The notes below the pieces were generated by a model, which was given only the letters and a program-made list of their open reading frames with translations, ran no database searches and was not told where the DNA came from. The position numbers and the translations under genes were made by a program. From Albugo candida (lineage: Eukaryota; Oomycota; Peronosporomycetes; Albuginales; Albuginaceae), in contig CAJNAR010000039.1 in NCBI GenBank assembly GCA_905220665.1, forward strand, positions 1-64,000: a stretch of DNA of 64,000 bases, read 5' to 3'. Positions 6,001 to 56,488 of this stretch are shown here, in pieces (positions within the stretch are counted from its first letter, which is position 1; every line of letters begins with the position of its first letter).

Positions 6001-7370
6001 AGTGGGTGTCGATCCTACATTTTCGTGAGGTCCAAAAATTTTGACTTCTCGTTTATCTATCTGTTTATGACCTTTTCGATACATTGATTATCGGATAAAA
6101 AATTCTGGTCGAAAAAAATATTCTCAACCAGATACCAAGAGAAAAAGCAGCTGATAAAGCTATCTGTCATCTAATTTCAATCAAAATATCATTTGTCATC
6201 AGCTACCAAGTTTTTTTGAATGTAGACGGATATTGTATTCCTGCTCCTATCCAAAGGACGCACTATGTTTATATACACGACCCATTTCTACATTCTAACG
6301 TAATAGAACGTACCGATAGGCCATGATCACTGTATTTTGAGCTTTTTTTCAAAGCTGTTCGCATTACGAATGGAGAACAGAGTGACCTTTATAGACACTT
6401 CTATTCGTCAGAAACCGTGAGAATGAGGCTAGACAAGAACAAGAATGACGTTTAGACAACAATAGTGAGGAACCATTTTCAACAATATCGCTTGAGAAAA
6501 GACGGTCGTGTCGGAACGTGCCAGGGGGATCTATGGATGCACTTCATGAATAGGCGACGGTAGCTAAACGGAATGCGCATCATTGTGAGGCATCATGCCA
6601 TCAGTAGTATCACACCCTTATCCATGTTGAATTAAAATCCGTGATTGTGACACAAGAAGATCATCACATAGATGCAGTTATATATCCTCATTGTACTTTG
6701 AATAAATATTATCAACTACCCTTAGTGATCTTGACCCACGCTTTTATTATTCTGCCTGTTCTGGTCTATTTTGTCGCGCTATATTACGTCATCGAGGTGT
6801 TTCATCAATCCTCCTTATTTTCATATATAACTAATCTACTCAATGTTGTAGCATACAAGAAAAATGAAAGTAGGTGTCGATCCTACATTTTCGTGAGGTC
6901 CAAAAATTTTGACTTCTCGTTTATCTATCTGTTTATGTCCTTTTCGATACATTGATTATCGGATAAAAAATTCTGGTCGAAAAAAATATTCTCAACCAGA
7001 TACCAAGAGAAAAAGCAGCTGATAAAGCTATCTGTCATCTAATTTCAATCAAAATATCATTTATCATCAGCTACCAAGTTTTTTTGAATGTAGACGGATA
7101 TTGTATTCCTGCTCCTATCCAAAGGACGCACTTTGTTTATATACACGACCCATTTCTCCATTCTAACGTAATAAAACGTACCGATAGGCCATGATCACTG
7201 TATTTTGAGCTTTTATTCAAAGCTGTTCGCAATACGAATGAAGAACAGAGTGACCTTTATAGACACTTCTATTCGTCAGAAACCGTGAGAATGAGGCTAG
7301 ACAAGAACAAGAATGACGTTTAGACAACAATAGTGAGGAACCATTTTCAACAGTATCGCTTGAGAAAAGA
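1..7370. repeat. ~870 bp tandem satellite, 8.5 units, A/B dimeric order
   Basis: The same sequence recurs at spacings of 870, 870, 863, 870, 864, 870 and 872 bp, taking the recurring GTGATTGTGTCA at 562, 1432, 2302, 3165, 4035, 4899, 5769 and 6641 as the marker. Units are nearly identical; a main length difference is a 6-bp indel (TTATTC) after GAGCTT. The array is cut at the left window edge and stops at 7370, where similarity ends after TTGAGAAAAGA. Every unit has a 76-104 codon open frame with a hydrophobic stretch, but it opens with GTG rather than ATG and two units lose its C-terminus, so I read the array as non-coding satellite. Single-base variants alternate between neighbouring units, which indicates a two-unit higher-order repeat. 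Confidence 0.95.
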
Positions 7371-7557
7371 GCTTGTGTCTTGAACACAACAAATGGAGTG
7401 TTGTGAAAGGATGTGGGATATAAAAAGATGACCGATTTGGGGAGGGGGTGGGGGGGGGCAGGGTGGGCCGCCGGGGGGGGGAGAGGGGGAGGCGTGGGGG
7501 CGATGGCGCCATTCGGGATGGAGGGGGCGGGATAAGAGGGGGAGAGATATTTTTTTT

Positions 7558-7558
<1 letters not shown>
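7371..7558. repeat. Low-complexity G-rich tract at satellite boundary
   Basis: After the satellite the plus strand becomes almost pure purine, with long G runs between about 7437 and 7533, some of nine or ten G. It could form G-quadruplexes on the plus strand. The short proline-rich open frame on the opposite strand here is a composition artefact. The tract separates the satellite from the LINE poly(A) tail and could be a real junction or a region of poor assembly. Confidence 0.7.

Positions 7559-7594
<36 letters not shown>
7559..7594 (-). repeat. Poly(A) tail of minus-strand LINE (36 T on plus strand)
   Basis: An uninterrupted run of T follows a shorter T run at 7551-7557. Read on the minus strand it comes directly after the LINE ORF1 3' region and an AATAAA-like sequence, so it looks like the poly(A) tail of a retroposed transcript. 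Confidence 0.7.
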
Positions 7595-7596
<2 letters not shown>

Positions 7597-10280
7597 TTAA
7601 AGATGACCATTTTTATAGATTCCTTTTGACATTCACCGTGAGTGCTGAGATATTGTTCCACGTTGAAATAACCGAGGAGCCCTTAGCATTCACGCTGAAG
7701 TGGACCGGCAATCAACCTCATTTCACCATCTTCTTTCGAGAGGTGAAGTGTTGCTTTCTCTTCAGGGAAAAAGCTGAGATTGACTGAGAGCTCGCCAATA
7801 TCGCCACAGAGAAGTCCTTGCCATTTACCACCAAACCATTGCGACCAACACTTTATGCCCACGTCGGAGCGTAACAACAAGATAAGCACATTGATGGGGA
7901 GTAAACGACAATGGTGACCCGGAATCCAGATCACTGGTCTATCGGTGAGATAGTGGATCCAGTGATCGTTTGTGTAAAATGTCGGGACAGTAGACATAAA
8001 TAACAATTCCAATAATGCGAGAGCTTTGGTCGCCCGAGTCAAAACGTGAACAGTGTCCGGCACTGACTTCCACCACGACATTACTTTCTCGAACAATACA
8101 GCTCTCTTAGAGGGAACTTTTCCACCAACGTGGCGATTCCATCGCGTCGTAAACGTGACATCTTCGCCGAGATTGTGCGCTGCAAAAACGCGATTGATTA
8201 GAAGTAGATGTGCTACTTCGTCCAACGCAGGATCACTCGACTCCATGCATGAAATAAGCACCCCATGCATGGTGATGGGATGATCTAATGCTGCCCGGAT
8301 GATTTGGTATGGGTTGGTACAAAATTTTATCAGCCGACGCACATGAGGGATGCACGCATCGGCTTGAACCAGCTTGTCCGGTCGAAGCTGGTGGAGTGCA
8401 TTTTTGGAATCCATTTCCATGAGCTCTCCGATTTCACCAATTCGAGTTGGTCGCTCTGCTTTTTCCACCGTTGTATGACGCTTCTTATAAAAGTGTGCCG
8501 CCTCTTTCGAAGTGGCTATCTCTTTTGGCATCCGTGCTTTCACGGGAATAATTTGAATGCGGTTGCCATGCTCCGGATTGGCAACCGCTTGGACTTCTTC
8601 GACTTCCACCTCCATAGTTGCGAGCACAGCAAAATGATTACTTGTCGACAACGTGGGGAGCGCACGAGGTGGTGCATTGGAAACCATATGGTCGAACGGC
8701 TCAGTCCGATTACGCTTTCCTCGTGTCCATGCCAACTGCATGTATGTGTCACCATCCTTCTCCACTCGTGGATGGGAAGATGATCGACTTTTCAATTGGA
8801 GGATTGGGGGAGTAGGCTGAGAGAAGTCTGGTGCCCCTCGTGATAAGATTGAGGGAGGACTGTTGAGCTCCAACGAAATTTGGTCGGAATTTTTTCGCTC
8901 CGGTCGCTTCGTCTCCAATTCCTGAATTTGAACACTGGCTTCTCCACCTTTTTTGGGACCACCGCGACTGCTGCTGGCGCGGTTGTTTGGTTTTGTTTTT
9001 CTTGTTGCGGTTTTGCTTGTTTTTGATTATGAGGTTGAGTGTGAGTTGTGTTTGGTTTTTTTTTGTTGTTGTTCTTTTTGTTTTCGTTTGATTGCTGCCG
9101 GGTTCCCGAGGCTAATGCAGCACCCAAATCCAAGCAGTAAGGACCACGTTGGCCAAAACGTGGTCGCTCATTTGGAATAGAAGCGTTCTTACCCCGTACT
9201 GGATAGAGCTGCTTGTCGTAAACAATTTGTTCAATCACTTTACCAACTCTAACCAGTTGTTGGGGACACGTCAAACAACCAAAGTAAACTCGCCAAGTCG
9301 ACATCACCACTTCCGTAGTGGGAGTCGTCTCGCGAAAGGTGTCATACACCACTTGACACCCGAGTTTGTGAAGAGCGCGGAGAATGTTGTTCCGTCCTTC
9401 CTCCACACCCACACCGAACACATCGAGGTAGTACTTTGTTTCAAGAGTATCAAAATCCCGAAAAAAGTACTTTTCCCCAAGGATAGTCACCGGCTGACAC
9501 TCCAACTGCTGGCAGCCATCCGCCGTCGTGACCATCACCCTGTGTTGCCCCCAGGCATTTTCGACACCTGAGCGTTGACCGGCTCTCCAGTAGGCTTTCA
9601 AAACCGGATTACCGTGGTTTCGCATCAGGGATGTTAGGATTTTCCCATTTGGAGTACGGGCAAGAACTGGCCCGTCTCCAAGACCATCGGGAAGGTTGAT
9701 TTCCGGATTTGGAAAGGTCTTGCTGCTTCCAATTTCGCAGGCAGAACAGACCTATCCGGGTGCTCCCCATCAGCATATAGCTGCAGTATAGCCTCGATAT
9801 CCGAGGCTTTCGGCTTTGCGAGCTCGACGCGAAATTTCGCCCGAGCTCTAGCCTGGTCCTTACGCAAGGACTCCTGCGACTTGATTATTTCTGCCAAAGT
9901 GGGACCTTTGGTGTCGTCCACACTTGCAGTTGCAGTTGCCTGTTGGTCACCCTGTGACGAGGCAACGCAGTACCGCATGTACCACCGGTACCACATCCTA
10001 CACCGGCAGTACCGGTATTAACATGTATTGTCACACAGGGGGTGGGGGTACTTTCAACGTCATCACATAGGGGTGATGACTCATCAACAATCATGCAATC
10101 ACCCAAAACAGGGTGACTCATGAGGGTTGTCACGTCACTACAAGTGGACGCTAGCACCCTTGGTTGTGTCGATATGTCGACTTGAACCATTGTTTTCGAG
10201 AGGAAAGAGTTGGAAAAGTTAGTTTTTCGAGTTGTTTTGTACTAAATTGGCGGGTTACGTAGTAGCCGGCAAATTGAGAA
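7595..10280 (-). mobile_element. L1-like LINE copy carrying ORF1 only, poly(A)-tailed
   Basis: The minus strand reads a short 5' leader (10280-10191), an ATG at 10190, ORF1 to 7683, an approximately 85-bp 3' tail and poly(A). There is no reverse transcriptase between ORF1 and the tail. It therefore looks like either a retroposed, internally shortened LINE or an ORF1-only derivative. Its 5' end directly abuts the 16-bp junction sequence that also ends LINE fragment B. I did not find a copy of that sequence after the poly(A), so a target duplication is not established. Confidence 0.65.
7683..10190 (-). pseudogene. LINE ORF1 (gag-like RNA-binding protein), frameshifted
   Basis: This encodes the ORF1 protein that would coat LINE RNA. 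The translation runs through several frames: 10190-9885, 9996-9634, 9625-8792 and 8918-7683. Near 9655 and 8930 the sense clearly continues from one frame into the next, so the gene is broken by frameshifts. The middle part (about 9480-9180) has the block FRDFDTLETKYYLDVFGVGV, then TWRVYFG and a QIVYDKQLYPVRGKNA-like end, a pattern I associate with oomycete LINE ORF1 proteins. It is followed by a long Asn/Lys/Gln-rich linker (about 9110-8960) and a less conserved C-terminal part with several Trp and His residues. The family call rests on pattern memory, not on a search. Confidence 0.7.
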
Positions 10281-11330: not shown

Positions 11331-13755
11331 AGTTGAAGGTGTCTATATTACTAGAATTAGACGTAAATGACTTCTCTAAATGCCTAGACTACAATAAATA
11401 ACATATAATACATGCAGATGTGGCTTGAAAAGTCACAAAGAGTGGACTAGGTGCGGTTGATGACGGTTGAGTAGACTAGCCACTCAACTCAGACTTATGA
11501 GCGCTCACGCCTTCGTATCTTGAGAAGATCCGATCGCCCGGAGAAATATCTTTATGCTGAACCTGATTGCAATAGGGGGAGTAAAACCATCTGAAGCTGA
11601 TCAAGCTGTGGGGGATCATAGCACTGACGTTGATAAAACCGAATATGGGCGCTGAAAGTGCTGTAGATTAACGAAACAGCTGGTCCTGTTGGTGTTGAAG
11701 ATACTTGGTCGAAAAGTCGTCGATTCCGATCCGTCCAGATGAAATGGATCGAAATGGCAACCAATGCAAACCAAAGATCTTCAAACACCATTTTGAATGG
11801 CCTCCACCTGTCCCGAAGGAGAGGAAGTCGTAGACACGCAATGTGCGACCACTTAGGTCGAGCTGAAAAAAAGCTGTCCAAGAAGGAAATAGCTCCTCCC
11901 AAATTGGGTAAGTCCTACTACAGTCGAAAAACAGATGCTGATAACTTTGCACCTCACCACAATGCTCCTGTCTGCACAGGATGATTTCCGGATGAGCTTG
12001 CTTCAGAACCGGGATCGCACTGGTAAAATTGAATATGTAAGTCGGAGCTGAATGTCCGAGTATATTGGTAATAAACGTCCGCGGAGACGTTTAAAACCCG
12101 TTGAGAAATCCTCCACCGAAGTCGAAGCACTTGGCCGGTCTCTCTCTGGTATGTGCAGCAGCAGTGGGTGAGGCTTATCCGGTGGTTCTCCTTTCCCAAC
12201 AACTCGAAAGAGTTGATTCCTAGGAATAGTCGGAAGAAAACCTTCGTAATCGAAATTTGAATGCCAAACTGAACCAGATACGCCTTTTCAATGGAACGCT
12301 CTGGACACAACAAAACGCCCTCCGGTTGAATTCGACGTAAAATTTGAGTAGCTTCCACGTACAAGCGTCGTAAAAGCTTTGTCTTGGCTACTTCCGCTGA
12401 ATTTTCAACTTCATGCGTACTGAAACGCAAGACAAACTCGGAAGACGAATTGAGCCAAGTTGATCTTCCACCGAACAAATCACGTAGAGAACGGATGCAG
12501 AACGCTTTAGCGAACTGCATCCTAAAAGTACGCGCATGTTCCGGGACCTTTTCCATACATCGACGATGAGCAACCGCACTAGTAGAACGTTGCCGTTGCT
12601 CAAAGAAAAGATGAGAATCCACCTGCAGCCAGACAGGAGCATTTAACATAACGATGTATTGCTCCTGTGAAGACAAGGTCTGGGGTGTGAGTTCCCACTT
12701 GCTCTGACTCCACCAAACGCACGTCTGCTTCCACCACGATGACGCTACATTCCAACGAACCATGGTAGCATGCCGACGAGGTGATATCGTTAAGATATCG
12801 AGCGGCTTAAACGGTCCAAAGTTGGGTAAGATACTCTTCACAATTTCCATACCAGTCAATGTCCAGTTGCTTGAAACAGGTCTACTGCAATGTAGTGCAA
12901 ATTGTTGTAGAAATTGGAGTCGCTGCTTCATTATTTGCTTCTCGTTCATCGGAACCTGTAAACCACCTTGTGAATAAGGCAGATAGAAAAGTTCCGATCG
13001 AATGAGCTGCACGTGTGTTGAATCCCGCTCATACTTTCGACTCAACACGAATCGATTTAACATCGATTGCCAACGTCGCAGTAAATGTTGCGGGATATTA
13101 AAATGTGTCGTAAAATGCCATAATCGTGACAAAACCATGGTCTGCGCCGCCAGTAAACGTCCACGCACTGTTCTTGCTCGACGAAACCACCGACGAAAAC
13201 CACCATAGAAACGATCTTCTAGGAATTCAATCATCAAATCACTCACTGGTGATTGACTGAAAGGAACTCCCAAATACTTGACCGACTCGCACCGTGATAG
13301 AACTTTCACTGAAGCGAACGGCTGACAGACTTGATGACGGTTAAGAGGAAGTAAAGTTGACTTTGAAAGATTTAACTTTGCTCCTGAACCATCACAATAG
13401 TGTTGAACGACATCAAGCTGAGCCTCCACCCCGCCGAGCGAAGACGATAACAAAGTCGAGTCGTCCGCAAAGAATAAACTTGTTGATGTATCCATTGGAG
13501 TGATACAAATACCAGGTCCTTCATTTCTCCGCAACAAATTTCCCAACGGCTCAATAGTCATGAGAAAGAGCAATGCGGAGAGTGGATCACCTTGTTTGAC
13601 TCCACGAGAAGGAGTGATCTTTGGTGAAAGCGTTCCATTTAACAACAGCGAAACATTCGTGTTGGTGTATAGAAGCTTTGTCCACTTGATAAAAGAATTT
13701 CCGCAGTTCATTTTCGAAAGCACAGCAAACACGTTTAGAGGATCTACAACGTGAC
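11331..13755 (-). mobile_element. LINE fragment A, 5'-truncated, ORF2 RT to 3' end
   Basis: Minus-strand LINE copy of the same family as B and C. It starts inside the reverse transcriptase (about 13755, edge not exact) and ends at the CTTCAACT terminus. The endonuclease and RT N-terminus are absent. Copies A and C align through the region after the RT. B and A both contain the WTDRNRRLFDQ block, so they are separate insertions and not one element. Confidence 0.8.
11552..13732 (-). pseudogene. LINE ORF2 reverse transcriptase and C-terminal domain (partial)
   Basis: ORF2 would be the polymerase for target-primed reverse transcription. In the minus-strand frame 13732-11954 (592 codons) I see GVKQGDPLSALLF and FFADDSTLL, which are the conserved RT blocks; FADD is the catalytic pair typical of non-LTR elements. 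The remaining 400 residues correspond to the thumb and the Trp/Arg-rich C-terminal region. The sense then shifts frame into 11902-11552, which contains HFIWTDRNRRLFDQ and the end of the protein. The upstream endonuclease and RT fingers are missing, so the copy cannot move by itself. Confidence 0.8.
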
Positions 13756-17505: not shown

Positions 17506-18174
17506 ATGTGTCGGATCACAGCAATACATCTCACCGTTTGCACGCTTTGGGTCATAACAATGACCGAAAGCACAATTGTGCATCAGACCGATCTACGTGA
17601 ACGAAAGCACGTCTTTATATGTGATATGTCCAGCTCCTGCATCTTTGCCCTCGCGCTTTTATCACAAAAGCTTGCGGGTGATGCAATAATTCTTGATGTT
17701 GGCATGACCTCCAACTATGCATATATACAATATAGACGTCCAAAAGCACGCTACGGAATACCTGTTTACACGATGCCGATGATCACGAGAGGGTCTACAG
17801 CCATCAAAGAGTTTTACGATTTTGTCCACCACGTGATCGGCGCCAGACAAAAAACACTTTTTGTATTGGCTGATGCAGATAGTGTGAATCGAGCAGGCGA
17901 TCTTATGAACATTTTGCACTCTCTTGAATGCAAATGGGATGAGTTCCATGTCCGGGGCCATTGCAGCCGTCAAAACCTCGTCTCGCTACTAACTACCTCT
18001 TCTAGCTACAATATGTTTTTTTTTTGCGATGCGGTGCCGTGGAATGACGAATGCCAAAATTCTTGGCTGGTAATCCGCTTTTCAATATATTGTGCACTCT
18101 GGCTCAAACAAAGTACATTATCGCCAAAATTTTACGTATGCCGTCTGTCCAGGTATAGGAGTCAGCCAGATTGA
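17506..18174 (+). CDS. Possible secreted nucleoside-hydrolase-like protein (222 codons)
   Basis: A 222-codon ATG-initiated frame. The first 20-27 residues are moderately hydrophobic (AIHLTVCTLWVI) and could be a signal peptide. From about residue 35 the pattern resembles the inosine-uridine nucleoside hydrolase fold: VFICDMSSSCIFALALLSQ in the place of the N-terminal Asp-cluster strand and helix, then ILDVGMTSN, GIPVYTMP and KTLFVLADADSVNRAGDLMN in the place of later strands. The metal-binding Asp cluster (DxDxxxDD) is not preserved, since only one Asp remains. It would therefore be catalytically dead or not this family. The C-terminal 60 residues look unrelated, and the normal family length is above 300, so it is truncated or frameshifted. 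A phenylalanine-coding T9 run (about 18017) is a possible indel site. Confidence 0.35.
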   Translation: MCRITAIHLTVCTLWVITMTESTIVHQTDLRERKHVFICDMSSSCIFALALLSQKLAGDAIILDVGMTSNYAYIQYRRPKARYGIPVYTMPMITRGSTAIKEFYDFVHHVIGARQKTLFVLADADSVNRAGDLMNILHSLECKWDEFHVRGHCSRQNLVSLLTTSSSYNMFFFCDAVPWNDECQNSWLVIRFSIYCALWLKQSTLSPKFYVCRLSRYRSQPD

Positions 18175-20520: not shown

Positions 20521-21494
20521 GTTTGGAGTTGAGTTGTAGAAGTGATTTACGTGGCGCTGTGCTAGCCTTATTCAATTGTCGATGAATATGCGTTGCTCAA
20601 TACTCAAGAAAGTTATCTCTTATTTGGCGCAACAGACTACAGAAGTAGCCACCATTCACGGAAAGGTTGCACTAAGAATAATCCGACTAGCACAGCTTGA
20701 ATATTGGAGATAAACCGGTACAAGGCGGTTGCGTCCATTTTCTTAGCGAGACACAACACTTAATTTGGCGGAAAGGATTTTCCTCTCACCGGGAAACCGT
20801 GTGGAATGTATCATAAGAAGCCATGAAACTCAACCCACAGATACCTTACAAAATTCGCTCTTAGATGAACACAGTATGCTGACAGCATTGACCCGGTTCC
20901 ACTTTGGATACTCCCATCTGGAGACAAATAAATTACTATAGTTGAATTAAGAGTTTGACGATCTTCTCGGTATGATCACACCTTCATTGTGGCTGAATAC
21001 AGCCAATTGTGTACTTGAAAAATGTGCACATGGTAAAGGATGCTATGTCTAGCGTTATTGCCAGTTAGAATCGTAGTGAGTACGACATTTACTTAAGAAG
21101 CGATCGGAGGCCCTGAGTTATCGATACATTAGAGCTATTCAACGCTGGGGCGGGAAGGCACTCTCTTTTATTAACGTCATCGCGACGTCATTCATTTTGC
21201 AGTAGATTCAAACGGATACGATGTGCGAGCAAAATTATGCAAGTTGCGCTAGGCAGTAAGCTTTGACAATTGCTACAGGCTACTTTACCATCCATGTTGC
21301 CACTAGAACTACTACTACATGATTAGAAAATGGCAGATACTGCTGTCTAAATTGCCACGTTTTGATTCGTCAAATACACGATATCTTTATCCATTGATAA
21401 TCAGTTATTTTCAATTCACATGCTCTGATTGGCTGGCTTCCTGCAAATGTATTAATAATTGAGAAGGCAGACAAAAGCTATAAATTGAACCCCT
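20521..21494. other. Intergenic and presumed kinesin upstream region
   Basis: No gene is visible. It lies between the decayed paralogue and the start of the kinesin, so it should contain the kinesin promoter. TATAAA at about 21479 is only some 15 bp from the ATG and is not a convincing TATA box. Confidence 0.5.
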
Positions 21495-23487
21495 ATGGTG
21501 ACTCCAAAAGTAAGTTGATGACCATTCATAAAGATGTATCTCTAACACCAATGACTCAATAGCACGGACAAAATGGCAACGTTCGCGTTTGTTGCCGACT
21601 AAGACCTTTCAACGCGAAAGAATTCAACCAAAACGAACGCAAATGTGTTCAAACAAGCGAGAATATTGTATACTACAAGGTGCGCTATTCATGCGCGATC
21701 AGAATGTATTCAAATTTCTCATATTTTTCTGTAGAGAGAAGTGGTGTCTCATGAATTTCAGTTTGACCACGTGTTCACCGAACAAGACGACCAGTTAATC
21801 GTCTTTGATGCGGTAGCCCGACCCGCTGTTGAAGGTGTGATCATGTTATCATATGCAGCTGTGTTATTATCTATAACTGCTATCTGCAGATATCATCGAA
21901 GGATATAATTCAACAATTCTCACGTACGGGCAGACGTCGTCCGGAAAAACGTATACGATGCAAGGTGCCGACAATGGTGGCTCTGAAACTCACGGAATTG
22001 TACCAAGAACAGCTCTCGAGCTTTTTAATCGCATCCATACTGCTGATGCCAACTTGGAATTCACAACTAAATTGAGTTTTATTGAGATTTATATGGAGCA
22101 AGTGTGCGATCTACTGGATCCTCGAAAAGCGCGAGTGAATCTACAAATTCGGGAAGACGCAGGACGTGGTTTCTTTGTTGAAAACATGATGGAGATGTGT
22201 GTCACAAGCCCAGAAGAATTCATGCATCACGTCACTGAAGGGACCAAGAAGCGTGCTATTGCTGCAACCCAGATGAATCAACGCAGCTCACGCAGTCACA
22301 GCGTTCTTATGGTGAGAGTGTCCCAGAGACATGTTGAAACACAAGTGGCAAAATCAGGAAAATTGTACCTTGTGGATCTGGCTGGCTCTGAAATGGTCAG
22401 GAAAACTGAAGCTGTCGGACAACGGCTCGAGGAGGCAAAGATGATCAATAGATCATTGTCTACCCTTGGAATAGTCATCAACAACTTGACGGACTTGAAT
22501 ATGAGTCATGTCCCATATCGAGACAGCAAACTCACTTGCATTCTGCAAGACTCTCTTGGTGGAAATGCACGGACAACGCTGATTGTCAACATATCGTGCA
22601 GCAATATGGATTCAACTGAGACTCTTTCAACCCTTCGGTTTGGTAGCCGCGCGAAAAAGATCAAAAATCAAGCAGTCATAAATGAACGCAAGAGTGCCGA
22701 TGACCTGATAAATATTGTGAAAGCACTAGAAAAAGATTTGCTATTGGAAAGAAATCGCGTTACTGCGTTGGAAAATCGACTGGAGTGTACAACATCGTAT
22801 GAAAGCGGATTGAAAATTGCAGCTTCAAGTGCTCATGACGCAGCCATGTCATCTGACGCAAGTATTATCGAGGCTTTTCGGCAACTTCAGAAAAAGTTTA
22901 CAAATCTGGAAGGAGAATTAGTTGAGGTACAACTGGAGTCTAACCGACGAAGGAATAAAATTCGAGATTTGAATGCTCAACTGGACAGCAAAACCCAGTC
23001 GATGGAGTCGTCTGAGTTGAGTTGGATGGAAGCCGAAGAAGAGAACAAGAGAGTGGTGGCGAAAATGGAACTCGCTCTGAAAATGAAAGAGATTCAGTAC
23101 ACCGAGCTCCAGTCTGATGACGAGCGACTAAATTTCGAGCACAAGGAATTGACGATTCACGCAGAGAAAGTTGAACAACAACTCGATCTGCTGTCATCAG
23201 ACGAAGCAATTCGACTTGATACTGTAGAATTGCAGTCACCATGTGCAGCGAACGATATGGAGTCATTACCGCAGCGAAAAGCAGATTCCGAAAATGACTG
23301 CATGTTGGAACGTATTCCTTCGACCAGTACGCCTTCAATCTCAATCGAAGGCGTTCAACAACGCCTAAATGTATCCGTGGAAATACCGCTGACGGATTCG
23401 ATCATACAAAGAGTTCCTGTACTTGCGTCAACGAATCAAATCGGTGTGACATCAGGACTTACAGAGAAAGAACGCAAACACATGTAA
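21495..23487 (+). CDS. Kinesin-1 heavy chain, motor and first coiled coil (4 exons, truncated)
   Basis: A plus-end microtubule motor of the conventional kinesin type. The exon model is 21495-21509, 21563-21679, 21735-21834 and 21890-23487; the introns are 53, 55 and 55 bp, all GT-AG. The phases join to 609 codons plus stop. Motor landmarks in order are VRVCCRLRPFN (beta1), GQTSSGKTYTM (P-loop, with S for the usual G), NQRSSRSHS (switch I), LVDLAGSE (switch II), YRDSKLT with LGGNARTTLI, then the neck and a charged coiled coil from about residue 330. The start was chosen because MVTPK splices cleanly onto the beta1 strand. The frame ends at TAA 23485-23487, but the same frame continues as coiled coil to 23646, where a retrotransposon interrupts it. 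The motor itself looks intact. Kinesin-1 proteins are usually 900-1000 residues, so this product lacks the tail. Confidence 0.9.
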
Positions 23488-23646
23488 GCCATTCAGCAAA
23501 AGTTGGAGCATTTGGTTGCAGTACACCGTCAGCTTCTTCGAAACTTTGCAACATCGCAAATGAACGCCAAAGAAATGAAACGAAAAGTGGCAGTACGTGA
23601 CGATCGAATCAAGAAATTACAAGCGAGTAATCGACAAATCACAGAG
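23488..23646 (+). pseudogene. Kinesin-1 coiled coil beyond the stop codon, 5' of insertion
   Basis: In the same frame as the kinesin exon, 53 codons after the TAA encode a helical coiled coil (IQQKLEHLVAVHRQLL, then NAKEMKRKVAVRDDRIKKL). It runs up to the left target duplication CAGAG (23642-23646). This shows the TAA is an internal nonsense mutation and not the original end. Confidence 0.85.
23642..23646. other. Target-site duplication CAGAG, left copy
   Basis: CAGAG directly precedes the TG of the left LTR; the same five bases follow the CA of the right LTR at 30265-30269. Confidence 0.9.
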
Positions 23647-24037
23647 TGTAGCGGAGCTACTCTAGCTCCTTGACAGAGGAAGGCTATCTGCTCAACGAGC
23701 AACTTAGTTCTTTAAAAGAACTAGATTTAACGAGTCTAAAAGCTTAAAAGCTTAAGGTCCTTGTTCAAGGGACCTAACGATTCTGGGAATCGATAACACA
23801 GCACAAAGTGCACAAGATCTGAGACGCCTGAAGCAGGCACGTGTCTCTAACTGATCGAAAGGAGACCTGTTCTATATATATTTTTATCTCGAAGAGTACC
23901 TTACGCTAACCGTACCTAACCTAGGTACTAATGTCCGGTGGCTGACACGCGTCAGCTCCTAAAGCGAATGACCCAAAGCGTCCCAAACGTGTACCACACT
24001 GCATAACGGTTACTAAACGACGTGTAACCCTGTTACA
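23647..24037 (-). repeat. LTR (3' LTR of the minus-strand gypsy element)
   Basis: Starts TGTAGCGGAG and ends TGTTACA on the plus strand, so it has TG...CA ends. It matches 29871-30264 throughout with about 25 substitutions and one 3-bp indel. Confidence 0.95.
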
Positions 24038-24049
24038 CTCTCCCCCACC
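24038..24049 (-). other. Polypurine tract
   Basis: The minus strand reads GGTGGGGGAGAG immediately before the 3' LTR, the expected position and composition for the plus-strand primer. Confidence 0.8.
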
Positions 24050-24299
24050 AGACTGACGTTACCACAAACGTCAATCGAATCATTTTCTTCGAAGAGGACG
24101 TGGTGCCTACACTTAACCTCTCGGTTGTGCAAAGCATCAAACATCATGGTATCGGCATGCTATAAGCCTAAGGCTCTTCCCTCTTACCTGCAACCCGCTA
24201 ACCAAACCACTACTGGTCGGAAGCGCCTTAAGTTGCAGGATGAGCCTGGCTGCGATGTTCAAAAACATCTATGGCATATGGGCAATCCTGCCGAAGGAT

Positions 24300-24825
24300 A
24301 TCTCATACTCCCATGAGTTCTCTGACTCGGGATACCCTCGACACTTCACCAGATACTATTTTTGGCCATGACGACGACGTCGCGCGAGAACCTTCTCAGC
24401 ATGGAGCTGTAAGTTCCCTTGCTTGTCAAGCAACGCGGGTGGCGGTCGGAGTATCGGTGGATGACCAGAAGAAGCTGGTTCCCGAAGTGACGTGTCTCCG
24501 CGGGACTTTGAGGCAGACCTATCGTACGCTTGACGCGGTACAGACTCGCCTTCAGGCGTCGGAGCATGTCCAGACCCGGGTTGGGGCTCAGCTTGACATC
24601 CTTGTTCGGATGCAGTAGCGTGAGGCAAGGCCAAGTGCCGCGGCGCAAGCGCCCCAAAGTCAACGAGGGACGGATACCGATACGGTTTGAGTAGGCCAAC
24701 GTGAAACACGGGGTGTGTGCGCAATTTGCGGGAAGGTTGAGCGTGTAAGCAAGGCCCTCCTTAGCGATGACCGTGAATGGCCCAATGAAGCGTGGTCGCA
24801 ACTTTGTCTTGAAGACAGCGGACAC
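24300..24825 (-). pseudogene. Integrase C-terminus and chromodomain (broken)
   Basis: The minus strand reads KLRPRFIGPFTVIAKEG, then a frameshift to FHVGLLKPYRYPS, both typical of the end of Ty3/gypsy integrases. After a Pro-rich linker comes AEKVLARRRRHGQK, a stop codon, then YLVKCRGYPESENSWE. The last block is the chromodomain signature (YLVKWxGY...ENTWE, here with C for W). The function would be chromatin-directed integration. Confidence 0.8.
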
Positions 24826-24888
24826 TACATTTGTAGGTAGGTTTTTAGTACTGAGTATTACCTGGTCTCCGACCTCATAACTTTCAAT

Positions 24889-26050
24889 CTAACCTCTGCT
24901 GTTAGCATCAGCTTTCTCCTTTTGTCGAACTTGGCGCTCAGCCATTGCATCCCACACATGCCGTAAGACATTTAATCCCGTTGCGATAAACTCGCGAACC
25001 TGTTTCTTGACAGTATCAGGACTGACATCAGCAAGCCGATCGGCGATCTCTCCCCCACCAAGCCGTACCATGCAGATAGCGTTAACGGAATACGAGGGCG
25101 GGTGAGTCCGTTCACGTAGAACGGAGTATAGTCGGTAGATGCATGAAAAGAGTTATTTAACGCAAACTCAACCACAGGGAGCATAGAGCTCCAACTCCGA
25201 GGCGTATCAGCGCAAATGGTGCGTAAGATATCACCAATAACGCGATTAAGTCGCTCAGTTTGACCATCGGTCTGCGGATGATCCGCGGTGGACATATCCA
25301 ATCGGGTGCCAAGCAACTTGAAGATGGACTTCCAAAACTGCCCCGTGAAGCGAGGATCTCTATCAGAGATAATTGCCACAGGCAAATCGTGTTTACGGAA
25401 CACTCGATCGATAAACAGCGTAGCTGTATTTGTACCATCGATGGAGTCCGGCACAGCCGCTAAATGAGTCATCTTGCTCAAACAGTCAACAAAGACCACG
25501 ATACCCGTGTTTCCTTCCGAATCTTTCGGTGGGCCAAACACAAAATCCATACTAATGGACTCCCAACACCCCGTGGGTACTGGTAAACTAGCTAGTGGCG
25601 CAGCCGCATGCGCTGAGGGTTTAACCCGTTGAAACATTTCACATGTACGTACGTACGTACGTACTTAACCATTTATATAGTTTAGGCCACCAATAGTATT
25701 GCGCACTGAGCTATAGGTCTTCTCACGACCGAGATGACCACTCAACGCAGTATCATGTGTCTCATAGAGGATTCGATACTTCAACTCCTCATCATGAGCG
25801 ACAACGATGCGAGGACTGTCCTCCACGTCCGTGCAGTAGCACAACAGGCCTTGATCGATGGAATTAGATGTAGCCTCGCACGTAATCGTGCTGACAATTC
25901 TATGTCTGATTCTTTAAACTCCTCGCTTCCAAGCGCACGTATCAATGCTACACACTGTTCATTCTTGGCATAAGCCCCACGTATTAAGTCAGTGATTAAA
26001 GACGATAGTGAAGTAACATGAGAAAGCTCATAATCAGGCGTGCGGGACAA
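24889..26050 (-). pseudogene. Integrase zinc-binding and catalytic core
   Basis: Running down from about 26050 the minus strand encodes an H2C2-type finger (HDEELKYRI..HDTALSGHLG..) and, at 25637-24972, the catalytic core. Visible blocks are MDFVFGPPKDSEG (first Asp), SDRDPRFTGQFW (second Asp) and DGQTERLNR (Glu), the D,D,E triad. The core is open for 221 codons and is one of the better preserved parts of the element. A GTAC repeat (25645-25664) has grown between the finger and the core. Confidence 0.85.
25645..25664. repeat. (GTAC)5 microsatellite
   Basis: Five perfect copies of GTAC inside the integrase-coding region. It is palindromic and of no coding significance. Confidence 0.9.
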
Positions 26051-27445
26051 CGCATCGGCCTAATTATTTTGCTTACCCGGCTTATACTTCACCTCGAAGT
26101 TGTATTCGGCAAAGAATGAAATCCAACGAGCCATTCGCTATGAGAGAGGAGGCCACTGAGTCGCAGTGCGTAATGACGCATGATCCGTGTCAATCACGGA
26201 AGGCTTGGAGCCTAGCAGAGGAATTCTGAATTTGATTAGAGCATACTTCATCGCAAGTAACTCTTTGTCGTGAATCGGGTAGTTCTTCTCTGCAGCCTTG
26301 AGCTGGCGGAATTTATACGCGACAACGCGCTCATGAACATCGGTATCTTCTTGAAGCAGAGCACAACCTATGGCGAAGTCAGATGCGTCACAGACAACAC
26401 CGGGGCCTGAAGGAGAGTTTTCTTACCAGCACCATTGCACATCCTTTTTAAGGAGATCGGACAATGGCCGAGCCATATCGGCGTAATTCTCGCTGAACTT
26501 ATGCAAGTAGTTGGCGACGCCAAGCCACTTCCGCAAACCCTTTTGGTTCTTAGGAACCGGCCAATCGACTATGGCTTTCACCTCAGCGGGATCCGCTCTA
26601 AGGCCTCGCTTCCCGATGAAGCACCCTAAGAAAGAAATCTCATCCTCACCAAAGTTGCATTTCGAGGCGTTGGCATACAGCTTTTTTTTTCGTGCGCATG
26701 CATCCGAGAACAGCTCGTAAATGGTCAACGTGATCTTCCACATCAGACCGACCGTTCATGGCACGACTATGGACAAAGATGTCATCAAAGTATGTTTGTG
26801 CGCAACCTCGATGAGGTCTGAACAGTTGCGTCCCCAGACGATTGAACGGAGCCGGAGCATTGGATAGCCCTTGGGGCATGACATGCCACTCCCATAGCAT
26901 ACCACTCGGAGTACTAACTGCGCTGAGTGGTATGTCACCAGCTCGCATGAGCAATTGGTAATAACGATCGACTAAGTCAAGTGCTCTGAACATGATACAC
27001 CCTACCATAGCGTTCTGAAGCACATCCTTCCTAGGAATTGGCGCCTGAGCCGGAATGGTGGCTGCATTTAGCTTATAATAAGCGTGGACGATGCGCCACT
27101 TTCCATTGGGCTTTCTGACACAAAATGTTGGCGTGGAATGAGGAGATTTACTCCCAAGCACCATTCCGGCCGCGTGCTTTGCACGAAAGAACTCGTCAAT
27201 GACGTCACACTGCTCCTTGGGTAAAGGCCACTACCGTGTAACGCAATATTTAGTTCCCGGAACCGAGTCAATTTCATGACGAACACCTCTATGAGGATGT
27301 AAGACGGACAGAGGATTCTGACATACCACGTCTTGAAATTCTTTACCAAAGGATAACACGGATCCATAGGATCTCTCAAGATCGCTGATCCACTACGGGA
27401 ACTAAGGGCTGCCTCCTTCGTTTCCTCAAGAACGGATTCGTCCAT
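26040..27445 (-). pseudogene. Reverse transcriptase and RNase H of gypsy element
   Basis: Minus-strand RT: RKPNGKWRIVHAYYKLNA, FRALDLVDRYYQLLMR, MPQGLSNAPAPFNRL and TYFDDIFVHS (catalytic DD) at 27164-26646. It then shifts frame to FLGCFIGKRGLRADP and GLRKWLGVANYLHKF at 26743-26423. RNase H follows, with VCDASDFAIG, IHDKELLA, TDHASLR and ARWISFFAEYNFEVKYKPG down to about 26040. Several stops and frame changes make it inactive. The order RT-RH-IN is diagnostic for Ty3/gypsy. Confidence 0.9.
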
Positions 27446-27773
27446 TTTTTTTAGTTAAATAGGATGAGTTCAACTCAACATCGGGTCGAATGACCACTAC
27501 TTCGGATAAGTCACCAGCCTTTGAGGCATTCCGAACTTAAAATTCGACATTCCATCTAGCTCTAACAGTGCGTTCAACGATGGGAGAGCCATAGGGCCGA
27601 CGTGACCATCAACTGAGACAGTCAATCCATTCACAATTGTGTACAGCTGTTCGCTGGCATCACTCTGTGACATAACAGACGCTTTGCGTCTCGCAAACGC
27701 CACCTGGCTCCGTTGCCGTCTCTCTTTGGAGACCATACACCTCATAGAGGCTGGAACATCCGTGTTTACAAGG

Positions 27774-28277
27774 TCAGTTTGTTACAACCTTACTTTGATC
27801 TATACGAGAGCCGATGTTCCGACCGACATCCGATGAAGAGTCAGATAACTCGAGCTCATCATCCAGTGAACGTTTACGTGTCACTCCACGCGTATCAACC
27901 GGGCATAACCCTGGATGCCTTGGCTTCTCGCGAACAATGTCATTACCTACATTCAGTGTGGTTCCATCAAGGCCTACCCCACTCTGTGGATTTTTACGTG
28001 CCACTCCACGCACATCCTTAGAGCTCAGCTCAGGATCTCTCGGAACTAGGTTTCCAATGCTATCAGCATTCAGTGACTCATTATCACAATGATTTTCACT
28101 CAACGGAGTACGTGCCGTATCACTAACTGTTAGCGAGCTGCCTTCGGGACTAATGTCGTCAACATTGAAGTTAATTAACTCATAGATTCCAATGTCCAGC
28201 ACACAGACATCATCTGTCAGTGGTTCGCGCCAATAGCACTTCTGCTGCCTAGAAAAAGTGGGTTCATGACTCGCCAA
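27774..28277 (-). pseudogene. Linker between protease and RT of gypsy element
   Basis: A 167-codon frame rich in Asp, Ser and Asn with no recognisable domain. It lies between protease and RT in the polyprotein and is probably a disordered spacer. Confidence 0.5.
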
Positions 28278-28322
28278 AGCTTCGCTAGGAACAGTGCGCG
28301 TTGCGCCTAAGGTATTAGACCT

Positions 28323-28799
28323 TCAATCAATCCATGGCTCATGGCGTTCAAGCCAGGCCATACCTAGAATGATATCATATATCGAATCCAGATCCAGGAC
28401 AAGACAGCGCTCAATGCTGTCGAAGTCCAAAACCTTTACGCCTAAGTTCAAGGAGACTTTAGGAACGGTGATACGAGTCCCAGTTGCTAAGTTAACAGAG
28501 ATCGAATCCCCCTCATGCGCTTTGTGCACCTCAGCGTAATGCTGACCCCATTCCAGGGAACGGTGTCGAGCGTAATTGCATGACGCTCCGGAGTCGTTCA
28601 AAATCGACCATGGCTTATCAAAGCCTTTCACAGTCGCCTCTGCGAATAACAAGCCTGTCTTGTATCCAAGCTCCGTGCTAGCAGGCACAGAGCTCTTTGG
28701 GGCTAAGTCCTGCTCACCTCCACCTACTAAAGGCCCTACAGAACCTTTTTCTTCCCCAGTAGGGCACCCAGTGACTACTGGGACTTGAAGTTTCCCCAA
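28323..28799 (-). pseudogene. Retroviral-type aspartic protease of gypsy element
   Basis: A 158-codon frame. ILNDSGASCNY carries the catalytic DSG triad (about 28590). IYDIILGMAWLERHEPWID is the typical Ty3 protease C-terminal block (ILGMxWL). It would cut the Gag-Pol polyprotein. The frame ends with a stop just after the conserved WID. Confidence 0.85.
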
Positions 28800-28829
28800 G
28801 CCATACCAGGTTTCTGGTTAGCAGCGGGT

Positions 28830-29816
28830 AGTCGACTCATATGAGCCTGGCGCTGTTTGCGCAACGGGCACCTGGGACGCAGGTGGCTGGTACTTCCGCA
28901 CGAATAGCATCAACGGAAGTCGCGGTATTGCTCAGCAACTTGAAGCTCGGCTTCTCCTTCACCTTTAGCGTTGCTAAGGTCCATAGGCTCAGGCTTACAA
29001 AAAGTCGATGTACTCATCGAGCATGTTCTCGCAGAAGCTGTTTTATACCCATTCCAACCAAGTCTAGCCGACTTAAAGTTGTGCTCAGTATTCTGAGCTT
29101 TTTCGACCGCTTCATCAAAGCTAGTCGGGTGAACTCGAAAGACTTCGGCTCTGGAAACGCCAGTGCGAAGCCCTTCCATGAACACGGTCACATGGATCAC
29201 CTCAGCAAGAGGATCATTATGCATAGCAGCTATGAGTGTTCTCACCTCTTAAACATAGTCCTACAATTCGTTTTTACCCTGACGAGTAGATAAGAAGCGT
29301 GACCGCAACGCGATATGCCTGATCAGGCGGCGCAAAGACGGGCGTGAATTGCAACTTCAGCGAATCCCATGTGGGGAACGCCATGTCCACTGACGTACCG
29401 CCCGTCAGTGCCCAATCTCTAGCTCTACAATCGAGCTTGTTGACCGCCAGCGAGACCCGCTGATGCTCAACAGAGATCATGCCAGACTTCATGGTCATTT
29501 CTACCTCACGGAGCCAGTGGACTACGTTTTCACCCTCTTTGCCGGAGAAGTGACGGACGTCCAACTATACTGAACGAGGCTTAGTCTCTTTGTCTGGTGC
29601 AGACACAAAGCGTGTTGGCATAGCCGACGCCGTTTGGTCTCGGACCTGCCCTAATAGGGACGTTTCATACTGCATGAAGCTCTCAAGACGTGCATTCAGC
29701 ACATCCGGGCCTTGCGAAACAAGAAACTCCGCATATTCGGGACCCACAGCTGCTATCAGTTTGTCAAGCGCGGCCCTTTGTGCCTCAGAGAGGAGAGTGG
29801 GCTGTTCCATCCTCAC
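28830..29816 (-). pseudogene. Gag of gypsy element with CCHC zinc knuckle, broken
   Basis: Gag begins at the ATG at 29816 (EAQRAALDKLIAAVG...) and meets an in-frame TAG near 29565. It continues as LDVRHFSGKEGENVVHWL (the capsid start in this family), shifts frame near 29275, and reads on through FMEGLRTGVSRAEVFR to a TGA just before the zinc knuckle. The knuckle at 28909-28868 is CYSCGSTSHLRPRC, an intact CX2CX4HX4C. At least two stops and one frameshift disable it. Confidence 0.85.
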
Positions 29817-29852
29817 AAAGGTACAGTCTTTATAGACTAAGTTGTAGATTCA

Positions 29853-29868
29853 CCAACAAGTGCTACCA
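29853..29868 (-). other. Primer binding site, TGGTAGCACTTGTTGG
   Basis: Two bases inside the 5' LTR the minus strand reads TGGTAGCACTTGTTGG. It starts with TGG, which pairs with a tRNA CCA end. The deduced primer does not have a normal T-loop sequence, so I cannot name the tRNA. The same sequence lies beside the right LTR of the second gypsy element (62347-62362). Confidence 0.65.
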
Positions 29869-29870
29869 AG

Positions 29871-30264
29871 TGTAGCGGAGCTACTCTAGCTCCTTGACAG
29901 AGGAAGGCTATCTGCTCAACGAGAAACTTAGTGCTTTAAAAGAACTAGACTCAACGAGTCTAAAAGCTTAAAAGCTTAAGGTCCTTGTTCAAGGGACCTA
30001 GCAATCCCGGGAATCGACAACACAGCACAAAGTGCACAAGATCTGAAACGCCTGAAGCAGGCACGTGTCTCTGACTGATCTAAAGGAGAACTGTTCTTTA
30101 TTTATTTTTATCTCGAAGAGTACCTTAAGCTAAACGTACCTAGCCTAGGTACTAATGTCCGGTGGCCGACACGCGTCAGCTTCTAAAGGGAATGACCAAA
30201 AGCGTCCCAAATGTGTACCACACTGCATAACGGTTACTAACCGACGTTTTGTAACCCTCTTACA
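29871..30264 (-). repeat. LTR (5' LTR of the minus-strand gypsy element)
   Basis: The partner of 23647-24037, with TG...CA ends and followed by the CAGAG target duplication at 30265-30269. Confidence 0.95.
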
Positions 30265-30672
30265 CAGAGAGTCTGCGGAAGAACGCAGAGAAGCATGTGG
30301 AGGAACTCATTCGTCTACGGGATCAGATTTCAGACTTTTGTGCGCACAAAGAGCTCATTTCGAGAGCCATGGAAATGCGGAAGGGACGCTCATCAAGACG
30401 CTGCGTGGCGGAGGAGCGGCGGGACCGCTTTATTCATTTATCACCCACGTCAATGCGATGATCAAGTACGACCTATACGTGGGGGCAGTCAGCGCTCATC
30501 GGCTTCCTCAACTTCGAAAGAATCTATTGCAGAAGTTGAAGAGAAACTACAAACTGAAGAGCCTTTCCAGTCGAGCGGATCTTTTTTTACCGGCTCTTTC
30601 GGTTCTAGGATGTTTATGAAACTCGCACGGAAGAGAGACTCAGTTGGAGCAGACGGGCTTCGTACATTATGA
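30265..30672 (+). pseudogene. Kinesin-1 coiled coil and IAK-like tail, 3' of insertion
   Basis: Removing the element and one CAGAG joins the coiled coil without a frame change: the upstream frame ends at ITE and the downstream frame goes on SLRKNAEKHVEELIRLRDQI. It continues to RFIHLSPTSMR near 30450 and hits TGA. The next part is in another frame: QVRPIRGG, then a Ser-rich tail to TGA at 30670-30672. QVRPIRGG sits where conventional kinesins have the IAK autoinhibitory motif (QIAKPIRxG or KIAKPLRGG), so the tail is recognisable but out of frame. A frameshift near 30450 therefore adds to the nonsense mutation and the insertion. Confidence 0.8.
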
Positions 30673-30813
30673 CGTCCTTGTGATCTTAGAGTAGCTTGAT
30701 CAAAAAAGAAGGATCAGCGCATGCTTATTTGTCCATCGTCGAACGATACAGCCGTTGTTTTTGTCGTTGTAGCGTTATTGTGGAAATGTCGAGCTGTCGA
30801 TGACATGATGTAA

Positions 30814-30988
30814 TTGTAAAAGTGTAAAAGTGAAAAGTGTAAAAGTGTAAAAGTGTAAAAGTGTAAAAGTGTAAAAGTGTAAAAGTGTAAAAGTGTAAAA
30901 GTGTAAAAGTGTAAAAGTGTAAAAGTGTAAATGTGTAAATGTAAGAGTGTAAGAGTGTAAGAGTGTAAGAGTGTAAGAATGTAAATGT
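30814..30988. repeat. GTGTAAAA minisatellite just 3' of kinesin
   Basis: About a dozen copies of the 8-mer GTGTAAAA or AGTGTAAA, changing to GTAAGAGT-type units toward the right end. The open frames on the minus strand here (FYTFTLLH repeats) are by-products of the repeat. Confidence 0.9.
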
Positions 30989-33900
30989 GAGATGTCAAAA
31001 TGAGATATTAATTTTTGTTCCCGCTTTCTTTGATAATCTGCTTGATTTGCGCTGCATATTATGAACAATACTTATGTCATGCTACTTAGTGTAATCAATT
31101 ACACAACAAGCCATCTTCCACCTGAGGGCTTACAAGTCCATAGATCAAAACGATATGAGAACTTGCTGCTTTATCGTTTGGGCAGTACACAGCACCGACA
31201 AGTTGATAAGAGCTTAAACCGGATCAACTTCAGATCTGATCTTCTTCTCTTGACATTAAAGCTTAACTACCCAGCAGCTTTTCTTACGCGCATCAAATGA
31301 ATACACTTGCGTCGACCGTATTATCCGGAATTGATTTTCAGTACTACCATTGCTCGAGCAATAGGATTCTGACAATGGTGAATATGTACGAACTCAAAAA
31401 TGAGTCGAGCTGTGAACCAAAGTCACGTGTAAGGGCCTGCGCACGAACACTACATAGTCGGTGAAGCTTTTCTAAATTTCAAGGCCCGAAACGGGATTGT
31501 TTGAAAAAAGGCCCAATTCTCCGGATCACTACATCCTGTTTCCTTATGCATACATGGTGTTAATGTCAAGTGCTCTCATCTCTGTTGACTTGAATCTTCT
31601 AAATGCTTCACAATCGGCAGCAGCTACATTTGATCGATCAAGCGTTATGTGAAGGTTTTCTTGCTCATTCATGTACGACCATCCTAGATGCGATGCTCTG
31701 ATTGTATCTAGGTTAATGCTGATGTTTCGCCAAGCTATCCTGATATAATGCAACGAATTTATTGCCCAGTGTACTGATAGAAACTCCTGATCGTATGTTA
31801 TTGGACACTATAGCGATAATTATCCTATTCTTTCCATTTTCGCTGACGGATGGCTGACGAAGTGACTGGATAGATTAACATTATCGATTTGTATGTGACA
31901 TCGATTCGATTGGATTTGCTTAATGGGCTAAAGCGACCGGCATACCTGCAGCATCATGAACAGGTATTTTCCCTTTTTCGTTGATCAAGAAAACGTATAT
32001 CGACCGGTCGAAATGATTTTGCAGGAGCGTTTCGGTGAATTTCGGGAGGAGCAAAATGAAAGTGCCGATGAATGAGCACATGCTGGACAATCTACTATCT
32101 CAAACTCCGGTTATTTTCATCCTATCAATAAAGATATAGGCCGAATGTGTACGAGATTGGTAGAGCGCTATTTGAAAATGTCATTCATGGAGCATCTGGA
32201 CTGAGTTTCTTTACCAGCAATGCGCTCGTCATAATGTTTGAATATTGACATCTCCACTTACAGCCAAACATTACTCTACATCTCAAGCTTTTGGACCATT
32301 CTGACACTCAACTTATCTGGAGACTCGCTTGAGCATTATTAGCATGCCAATGTCTATTTCGAACCGGTGACAATATAAGCGGGAGCAGCATGTCTTGATA
32401 GACTTATTCATGATACATAGCGAACTATTGGAAACTCTTGATCCTGCCTTTTATGCGATATGGATGGCCTGCGCACAAACTCGTTTCCTTTGGTGTCCGA
32501 ATGCTTGACAAACATCATTTCTGCAACTGAAACAATGGGACAAGTACTAGACGAATGTGCTAAAAGAATCTCGGTTCTTTATCGCCAGGACCACTAGTAT
32601 TGACCGTTGACTTCGCTCGCTATTTGTCGAATGAATCAGCTCGTAAGGTAGTTCAAGGGTGGTTCTCATATTGGATGCTGGCAATATGTAAAAAAGCAAT
32701 AGTAATATGCGACGTGCTGGATGGCCCTGTCCCTCGTCCAGCCAAGTTGCTTATCAAGTTGGTGAAGATGTCATTCGAATTCAAAATGTGCGGTATAGTA
32801 TAAACAGCTGCTCGTATAGAGAGGATTCAATGACTACGAAGCATCTATTTGCTTCTATATACCTTTCCGTTATTCCATCTTGAGTGCATATGAGCATGTC
32901 TAACCTTAGCCTAGCAACTCGGTTCCTTGATAGTGCTGAAGTGCAGAAGGATATTCTCTTGAGCAGCACTAAGGTCGTAGGTTTTGACGGCGGACTGTAA
33001 AAAGACTATATTGTTCGTATGATATCAATTGCCGGCAGTGTCGACAATTTTACACTGGTTACTCCTCGAATTTTGCGTTACAATAACCCGAGTTCAAACG
33101 AATAATAGCCACTTCGATCGGACTGCGCAGCCGCTTTAATTGACATCAAGATGTTGACTTTGTTGAGATAGAACATCAATACTTAAAATGTCACACTTAG
33201 AGCCACATGTTTATGAGTATATAGCAACAAACTACGACGAGCTCTAGCTGGCATGCGGGTCAAAAGTAATTGGTGAATCATGTTCATTGCAACGTAATAT
33301 TGATCTATTGGTATTGGCTTGTATGACATAAGGACTATATTGAGGGTAATCGTATCGAGATGAATTTGATATTGAGTGCCTTTGCGCGGGTCATGTTGCC
33401 GGCAGCCTCACTTGGACTGTAGCGGCTGTCGCTCCCACTTTTCGTGATGAAAGTCAAATTAAAATCCTTTGCCGGCTCTTCGCGAGTAATCTCGAAGAAA
33501 AGTAATCCGTCTGCATTTGTGTAAATATCTTCAGGAGAAAATCCAGCCAGGACGCATTCGTGAATTGCTTAGCGCGAACAGCGAACTTGATTTTCCAAAA
33601 CAAAAACGTTTGCCGGCAATGACATCCCATAAAGTCAATGACTTGCGTGAATTGTAGCGAACTTTTTCCGTGGGAGCATGGAGTTGTCTTTGATGAAGTG
33701 ACGAGGCTGCATCCCGATGGACCCGTGCCACTCTTAGCTATAATTGACGGGAATACATCACGGAAAGAGAGGAGAAATCTCATGGAGAACAAAATGAGGG
33801 TGGCATTATTATAATCAGAACACCTTCCTGCACTCATGTTGGTGCCAAATAGCATGGAATGGGATCCATAGTCGTATATATACTACGTGAATTCAATATG

Positions 33901-56479: not shown

Positions 56480-56488
56480 GAGTCACAT
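56480..56488. other. Target-site duplication GAGTCACAT, left copy of LINE C
   Basis: GAGTCACAT is found here and at 58621-58629 on either side of LINE C. The flanking gypsy integrase sequence joins across it. Confidence 0.8.

Follow-up and report, generated by a model that had tools for sequence, protein, structure and literature searches.

A stretch of 64,000 bases of Albugo candida DNA, referred to here as the window, carries a gene for the heavy chain of the microtubule motor kinesin-1 whose coiled coil is split by a long terminal repeat (LTR) element of the Ty3 type. In an assembly of 38.9 Mb and 196 contigs, the window takes up positions 1 to 64,000 of contig C39, which is 80,230 bases long, and the named proteins nearest to its kinesin are from A. 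candida. The features of the locus, together with the insertions found in related copies, are collected in Table 1.

Table 1. Features of the kinesin-1 locus in the window and insertions in other copies of the family. Target-duplication lengths in the last three rows were judged by eye.
Feature	Positions	Strand	Remarks
Exons 1–3	21495–21509, 21563–21679, 21735–21834	+	N-terminal part of the kinesin-1 motor; in-frame splice
Main exon	21890–23487	+	remaining motor, neck and first coil; premature TAA 23485–23487 at its end
Coiled-coil continuation past the stop	23488–23646	+	coil to 23641, CAGAG 23642–23646; paralogs align through
LTR, element's own 3′ end	23647–24037	-	93% identical to 29871–30264
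Tf2-1-like SH3 of the integrase C-terminus, with putative chromodomain remnant	24272–24888	-	PF24626, 1.2e-7; stops and frame breaks
Integrase core remnant	24972–25637	-	PF00665, 1.4e-8
Reverse transcriptase remnant	26646–27164	-	PF00078, 6.9e-15
Aspartic protease remnant	28323–28799	-	PF08284, 8.4e-5
LTR, element's own 5′ end	29871–30264	-	best other genome match is the partner LTR
Distal kinesin: second CAGAG, coil end, tail	30265–30672	+	aligned with five paralog tails
QVRPIRGG, counterpart of the IAK motif	30463–30486	+	VIRPIRGG in oomycetes, IAKPLRGG in fungi
8-bp minisatellite (GTGTAAAA-type)	30816–30990	+	directly after the kinesin gene
Insertion in copy C29:73k (L011)			~4.1 kb, LINE-type (long interspersed nuclear element) reverse transcriptase inside; 15-bp target duplication
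Insertion in C149 copy (L022/L023)			13.4 kb, LINE-type endonuclease inside; 16-bp target duplication
Insertion in C6 copy (L018)			~0.6 kb; 13-bp target duplication

The four exons of the motor half join to exactly 609 codons up to the premature TAA, as an initial annotation made from the letters of the window had proposed. The introns between them have GT..AG borders and are 53, 55 and 55 nt long (the third at 21835–21889), and the same exon layout is seen in five aligned paralogs of the alpha group of the family described below. Within the main exon, an open reading frame (ORF) of 509 amino acids runs from the ATG at 21958. The motor matches PF00225 (2.2e-80) and kinesin heavy chains stand at the top of its PDB listing (1goj, 1.2e-76), which places the motor domain closest to kinesin-1 and bears out the assignment of a kinesin-1 motor and coiled coil to 21495–23487. 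The P-loop GQTSSGKT and the SSRSH and DLAGSE motifs, by which a kinesin-1 motor is recognized, are all readable in the splice. At the KLTR motif the arginine is changed to C; this residue is R in all 215 readable homologs of the 220 compared, the other 5 lying outside the pattern used, and it presumably faces the microtubule. The A. candida protein P0040 runs on past the position of the window stop in the same manner as the coil after 23487, as judged by eye. An Albugo-like kinesin fragment of 280 amino acids (P0003, from a contig of 2931 bases) terminates at the KHM residue that corresponds to the stop; its end could be the same stop as in the window copy, or the end of the contig.

Past the stop, the coiled coil is interrupted by the 6.6-kb element (23647–30264, minus strand). 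Target-site copies CAGAG flank it at 23642–23646 and 30265–30269, so that the pair of LTRs and the target-site duplication of a Ty3-type chromovirus are both present, in agreement with the boundaries first proposed. Protease, reverse transcriptase, integrase core and SH3_Tf2-1 all score above the Pfam cut-offs, and the protease–reverse transcriptase–integrase order on the minus strand is that of Ty3-type elements. The chromodomain piece after the integrase is a putative remnant of 28 amino acids (PF00385, E 2.2e-4), its 21.5 bits falling under the curated cut-off of 25.1; the first description of the locus as split by a chromodomain retrotransposon is right for an LTR element with such a remnant. 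With chromoviruses the element shares TG..CA LTRs, 5-bp target copies, the domain order and the position of this putative remnant, and it differs from them in being degenerate, as the longest stop-free run on its minus strand is 230 codons. The likeness is known here from the LTRs and the domain order.

The two LTRs are identical at 369 of 397 alignment columns with 3 gaps, in an alignment that extends three bases past the LTR; 25 of 394 positions differ (6.3%). The genome matches listed for the LTR number 42, both LTRs of the window element included. Each LTR finds its partner as best other match (93%), but other genome copies come almost as close, with 93% for one of the two LTRs and 91% for its partner. 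Relative to its element family the insertion is therefore not young; it is old and not recent. In many other copies of the gene in the genome both kinesin halves abut where the window has the element. In L009, for example, the left half reaches to 4906 and the right half begins at 4897; the two overlap by 10 bases, and the insertion site is empty.

In the distal half, comparison with five paralog tails revealed three breaks of the reading frame, near 30341, 30440 and 30582; the initial annotation had correctly reported loss of frame but had placed it at a single site near 30450. The window copy is accordingly not an uninterrupted full-length heavy-chain gene, being broken by the stop at 23485, by the element and by the three frame breaks. 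The motif QVRPIRGG, which had been likened to the IAK autoinhibitory motif, is present, though out of frame and past the stop. Alignment to oomycete kinesin-1 relatives confirmed the likeness, the tail motif corresponding to VIRPIRGG. The tail-motif pattern occurs in 110 of 202 homologs of at least 640 amino acids, with 0.2 expected in shuffled tails, and we take VIRPIRGG and QVRPIRGG to be the equivalent of the animal QIAKPIRPG motif. Alignments of the window to the C29:57k and C13 paralogs end in or near the minisatellite that follows the gene, and this minisatellite may promote exchange.

The initial annotation had proposed a search of the assembly for a second, intact kinesin-1 and a comparison of motor divergence; further kinesin-1 copies proved to be numerous. 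The motor-coil ORF of the window has 94 six-frame matches in the genome, many to other kinesins; leaving out the match to itself, the four highest identities are 94, 91, 91 and 89%. The kinesin Pfam model has 102 matches. Twenty stretches, a subset of the places among the 94 matches, were fetched, and all 20 match the window gene (blastn, E 1e-10 or better); over their best stretches the copies are 95.8–99.5% identical to A. candida records. Since two of them (L022 and L023) are halves of one gene and another two (L019 and L020) are probably haplotypes, the set amounts to ~18 other places, or ~19 with the window, some of the others being remnants only (L025–L027). When kinesin-1 of Phytophthora and Saprolegnia were used as queries for a separate canonical kinesin-1, the best matches in the genome were copies of this family, with none above them. 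The stretches on C67 and C179 (L019 and L020) are 99.9% identical over 8.3 kb, a broken beta copy included, and are probably unmerged haplotypes.

In a tree of 25 rows, the 14 Albugo rows form one clade (support 100/100) of three groups: alpha (C39, C29 and C13), beta (C16 and ABG067_006478, the latter 99% like C67/C179) and gamma (C1). The tree was rooted at the midpoint, and the long stem to the Albugo clade came with a program warning that long branches may meet; the C6 copy was assigned to alpha on DNA identity alone. Between the groups, synonymous divergence (dS) of the motor is 0.79–0.92 and the ratio of nonsynonymous to synonymous divergence (dN/dS) is 0.13–0.20, which indicates that the three lines have long been under purifying selection. 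The main exon is uninterrupted in seven copies: C29:57k and two each on C13, C16 and C1. The comparison of exons 1–3 covered the window copy together with five paralogs of the alpha group; openness in beta and gamma refers to the main exon. An eighth candidate, C29:128k (L009), was dropped because a TGA interrupts its frame immediately ahead of the YNSTI stretch; C29:73k has this TGA too. Six of the seven uninterrupted copies are same-contig inverted pairs. These (L012–L017) lie at 243.8k/310.8k of C13, 252k/283k of C16 and 197k/236k of C1, 30–67 kb apart. One gamma copy (L016) has a ubiquilin-like gene (579–2150) and a TRAPPC8/Trs85-like gene (6107–9001) on either side, and its locus is perhaps the ancestral kinesin-1 locus.

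Counting the window copy, the family has at least four broken members, each split by an insertion of its own that is flanked by a target duplication (Table 1); breakage of this kind is therefore routine in the family. Two simpler accounts of the copies were set aside. Several of the pair alignments are ~3 kb long, as if a fixed mobile unit had carried the kinesin; their ends vary among copies, which rules this out. Nor is C39 merely the other haplotype of C29, as its left part matches C29:59–62.7k and its right part C29:130–134k and C29:64–67k, at 82–97%.

The inverted pairs were then compared inside and outside the gene. For the two C13 copies, 67 kb apart, 27 differences were counted among the 2599 positions of the gene, a count that takes in introns and silent sites, compared with 185 of 2752 and 227 of 1230 in the flanks (sums from bins of oriented L012: gene 3000–5400, sides 0–2600 and 6400–7600); silent divergence of the pair is 0.011–0.015. 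Because silent and intron sites are also alike, gene conversion can explain the pattern and selection on the protein cannot. The C1 pair shows 1 difference in 2000 positions inside the gene and 26 in 243 at the far 3′ end. At the C16 pair, 99.5% alike over 3.1 kb, the ends are sharp and no gradient between gene and flank is seen. C29:73k is 99% like C29:57k over the 5′ 2 kb, yet carries the TGA of C29:128k; this is a sign of a mosaic copy, repeated mutation at the TGA being also possible.

At the window copy, the left noncoding DNA (introns and near upstream) differs from L009 at 5 of 391 positions (1.3%), compared with 25 of 394 between the LTRs (Fisher p 2.5e-4); the intron borders used in this comparison are 1–2 bases off those of the 609-codon splice. 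Without exchange, divergence between the LTRs should not exceed that between the copy and a paralog free of the insertion. It does exceed it, and this points to conversion. On the simplest reading, a C29-type copy would have overwritten the left half of the window copy once the element had landed. The open motor frame would then be best explained as a product of later gene conversion, better than by retained function.

Several observations weigh against this account. The 609-codon frame is open and the motor motifs are intact, so translation is possible. Measured against L010, the same noncoding DNA differs at 16 of 545 positions, and the contrast with the LTRs is weaker (p 0.015). The right flank at 30684–31700 differs from L009 at 90 of 952 positions in a stretch that contains the minisatellite, and the next part (31700–33800) at just 63 of 2076 (3%); the mosaic is thus not simply one of left against right. 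Faster mutation of LTRs, or LTRs that were already unlike at insertion, could make conversion unnecessary.

The open frame also raises the possibility of an expressed 609-codon product that, lacking the tail, acts either as an uninhibited motor or as a dominant-negative dimer. GT..AG introns and the retained P-loop and switch motifs would suit such a product; the stop precedes the element, so that read-through of the element would be unnecessary, and P0003, a separate Albugo-like record, ends at the same KHM residue. The altered motor arginine argues against it, as does the extension of low divergence into introns and upstream DNA, which indicates conversion rather than selection. The changes private to the window copy also look neutral, with 19 nonsynonymous to 6 synonymous at a site ratio of ~3.4–3.5. 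Private changes of the uninterrupted alpha copies are near neutral as well (12:3 in L010, 7:2 in L012 and 16:3 in L013, in sum 35:8), a further point against the conversion account, and this comparison does not separate dead from live copies. A functional truncated product is very unlikely, and the constitutively active tailless motor of the initial annotation, while possible, is unsupported.

The stop, the frame breaks or even the junctions could in principle be assembly errors. Over ~420 bp the tail shows three length differences of a single base, including one in a T-run, and the C67/C179 stretches make unmerged haplotypes in this assembly probable. Perfect 5-bp target copies around an LTR pair diverged by 6.3% are, however, not expected from a misjoin; the same T-run length difference is found in the C6 copy, and 21264–23649 aligns to L009 without a gap. 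An artefact is therefore very improbable.

The window copy is thus very probably dead, one of the many kinesin-1 heavy-chain genes that make up a family in the Albugo lineage, with its motor kept open mainly by conversion; its lack of function, and the direction and timing of conversion, are what we infer from the observed family, empty sites, breaks and divergence pattern. One ancestral kinesin-1 would have given rise to three subfamilies. Segmental duplication would have copied each of these again, in many cases into inverted pairs on one contig, with gene conversion holding the two genes of a pair alike. The Ty3-type element would have inserted into the coiled coil of the window copy, and the stop and the three frame breaks would have arisen there, before or after the insertion. 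Conversion by paralogs after the insertion may then have overwritten the motor half, leaving its frame open. Of the 'recent pseudogene with intact motor' suggested at first, the pseudogene and the open motor stand; with LTRs 6.3% apart it is not recent, the conserved arginine is changed, and the open frame would be better explained by conversion.

McMullan et al. (2015, PMC4384639) reported 59 kinesin-like genes in A. candida, which take second place by size in their list of the largest tribes; the passage of that paper on kinesins gives no split by class and does not describe inverted pairs, conversion or broken copies. Kinesin-14 and kinesin-20 are described as expanded in Pseudofungi in a passage of the 2018 Hyphochytrium paper (PMC5795050). 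Among the best-matching literature titles, a small part of all matches, none was on Albugo kinesin-1 copies or their conversion. The oomycete kinesin-1 heavy chain (KIF5/KHC), with relatives in Phytophthora, Globisporangium and Saprolegnia, shares with the Albugo family the order of motor, coil and tail and the VIRPIRGG-type motif. Albugo differs in its many copies in one genome and its long branch, and the window copy in being broken. In other oomycetes, one to a few kinesin-1 sequence clusters per named species are found among the matches listed, which are not copy numbers. In three homolog lists (best 120 each) the name A. laibachii was not seen, most rows carrying no name and long names being truncated, so that this is uninformative.

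Amplified kinesins with inverted truncated relatives are also known from maize Kindr/pseudo-Kindr, of the kinesin-14 class, where small interfering RNAs (siRNAs) from inverted truncated copies are described (PMC12941216). By analogy, the inverted Albugo copies and their broken relatives might together be an amplicon, selfish or regulatory in nature (with meiotic drive and small-RNA suppressors), in which dead copies silence live ones. Inverted pairs kept alike, many truncated copies and the long Albugo stem, with its long-branch warning, are in keeping with this. The PDB listing and the tree, however, place the family in kinesin-1 and not in kinesin-14, the inverted copies are 30–67 kb apart, and other very large gene tribes are also reported in A. 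candida (PMC4384639). The Albugo family is known here from sequence, and a Kindr-like amplicon is extremely improbable. A broader form of the idea, in which Albugo kinesin-1 would be an ampliconic, conversion-maintained family with a role in intragenomic conflict or dosage, its inverted pairs holding live motors alike and its broken copies serving as conversion partners or as small-RNA sources that regulate live motors, is very improbable.

Elsewhere in the window, open pieces at 7683–9625, 11954–13732 and 56478–57411 resemble LINE remnants. Among these a reverse transcriptase was recognized by Pfam at 11957–13732 alone (PF00078, 3.5e-12), with no Pfam family for 7686–8918 or 56524–57408. The stretch 17000–17950 matches C151:220827–221767 at 96%, and an overlapping ORF of 222 amino acids (17506–18174) has no Pfam match.

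Taken alone, the window copy is an ordinary pseudogene, and the multiplied family around it is mildly interesting. The 59-gene tribe was already published; the part worth keeping is a kinesin-1 family with inverted converting pairs. The gene for a microtubule motor has come to occupy ~19 places, and the main exon is uninterrupted in seven copies; inverted pairs look as if conversion keeps them alike, and transposons have killed copies repeatedly. Where a gene family has many copies, an open reading frame can reflect conversion and not selection, and should be read with that caution. What an obligate parasite does with extra kinesin-1, and conversion between inverted oomycete copies, thereby become testable by ordinary sequencing.

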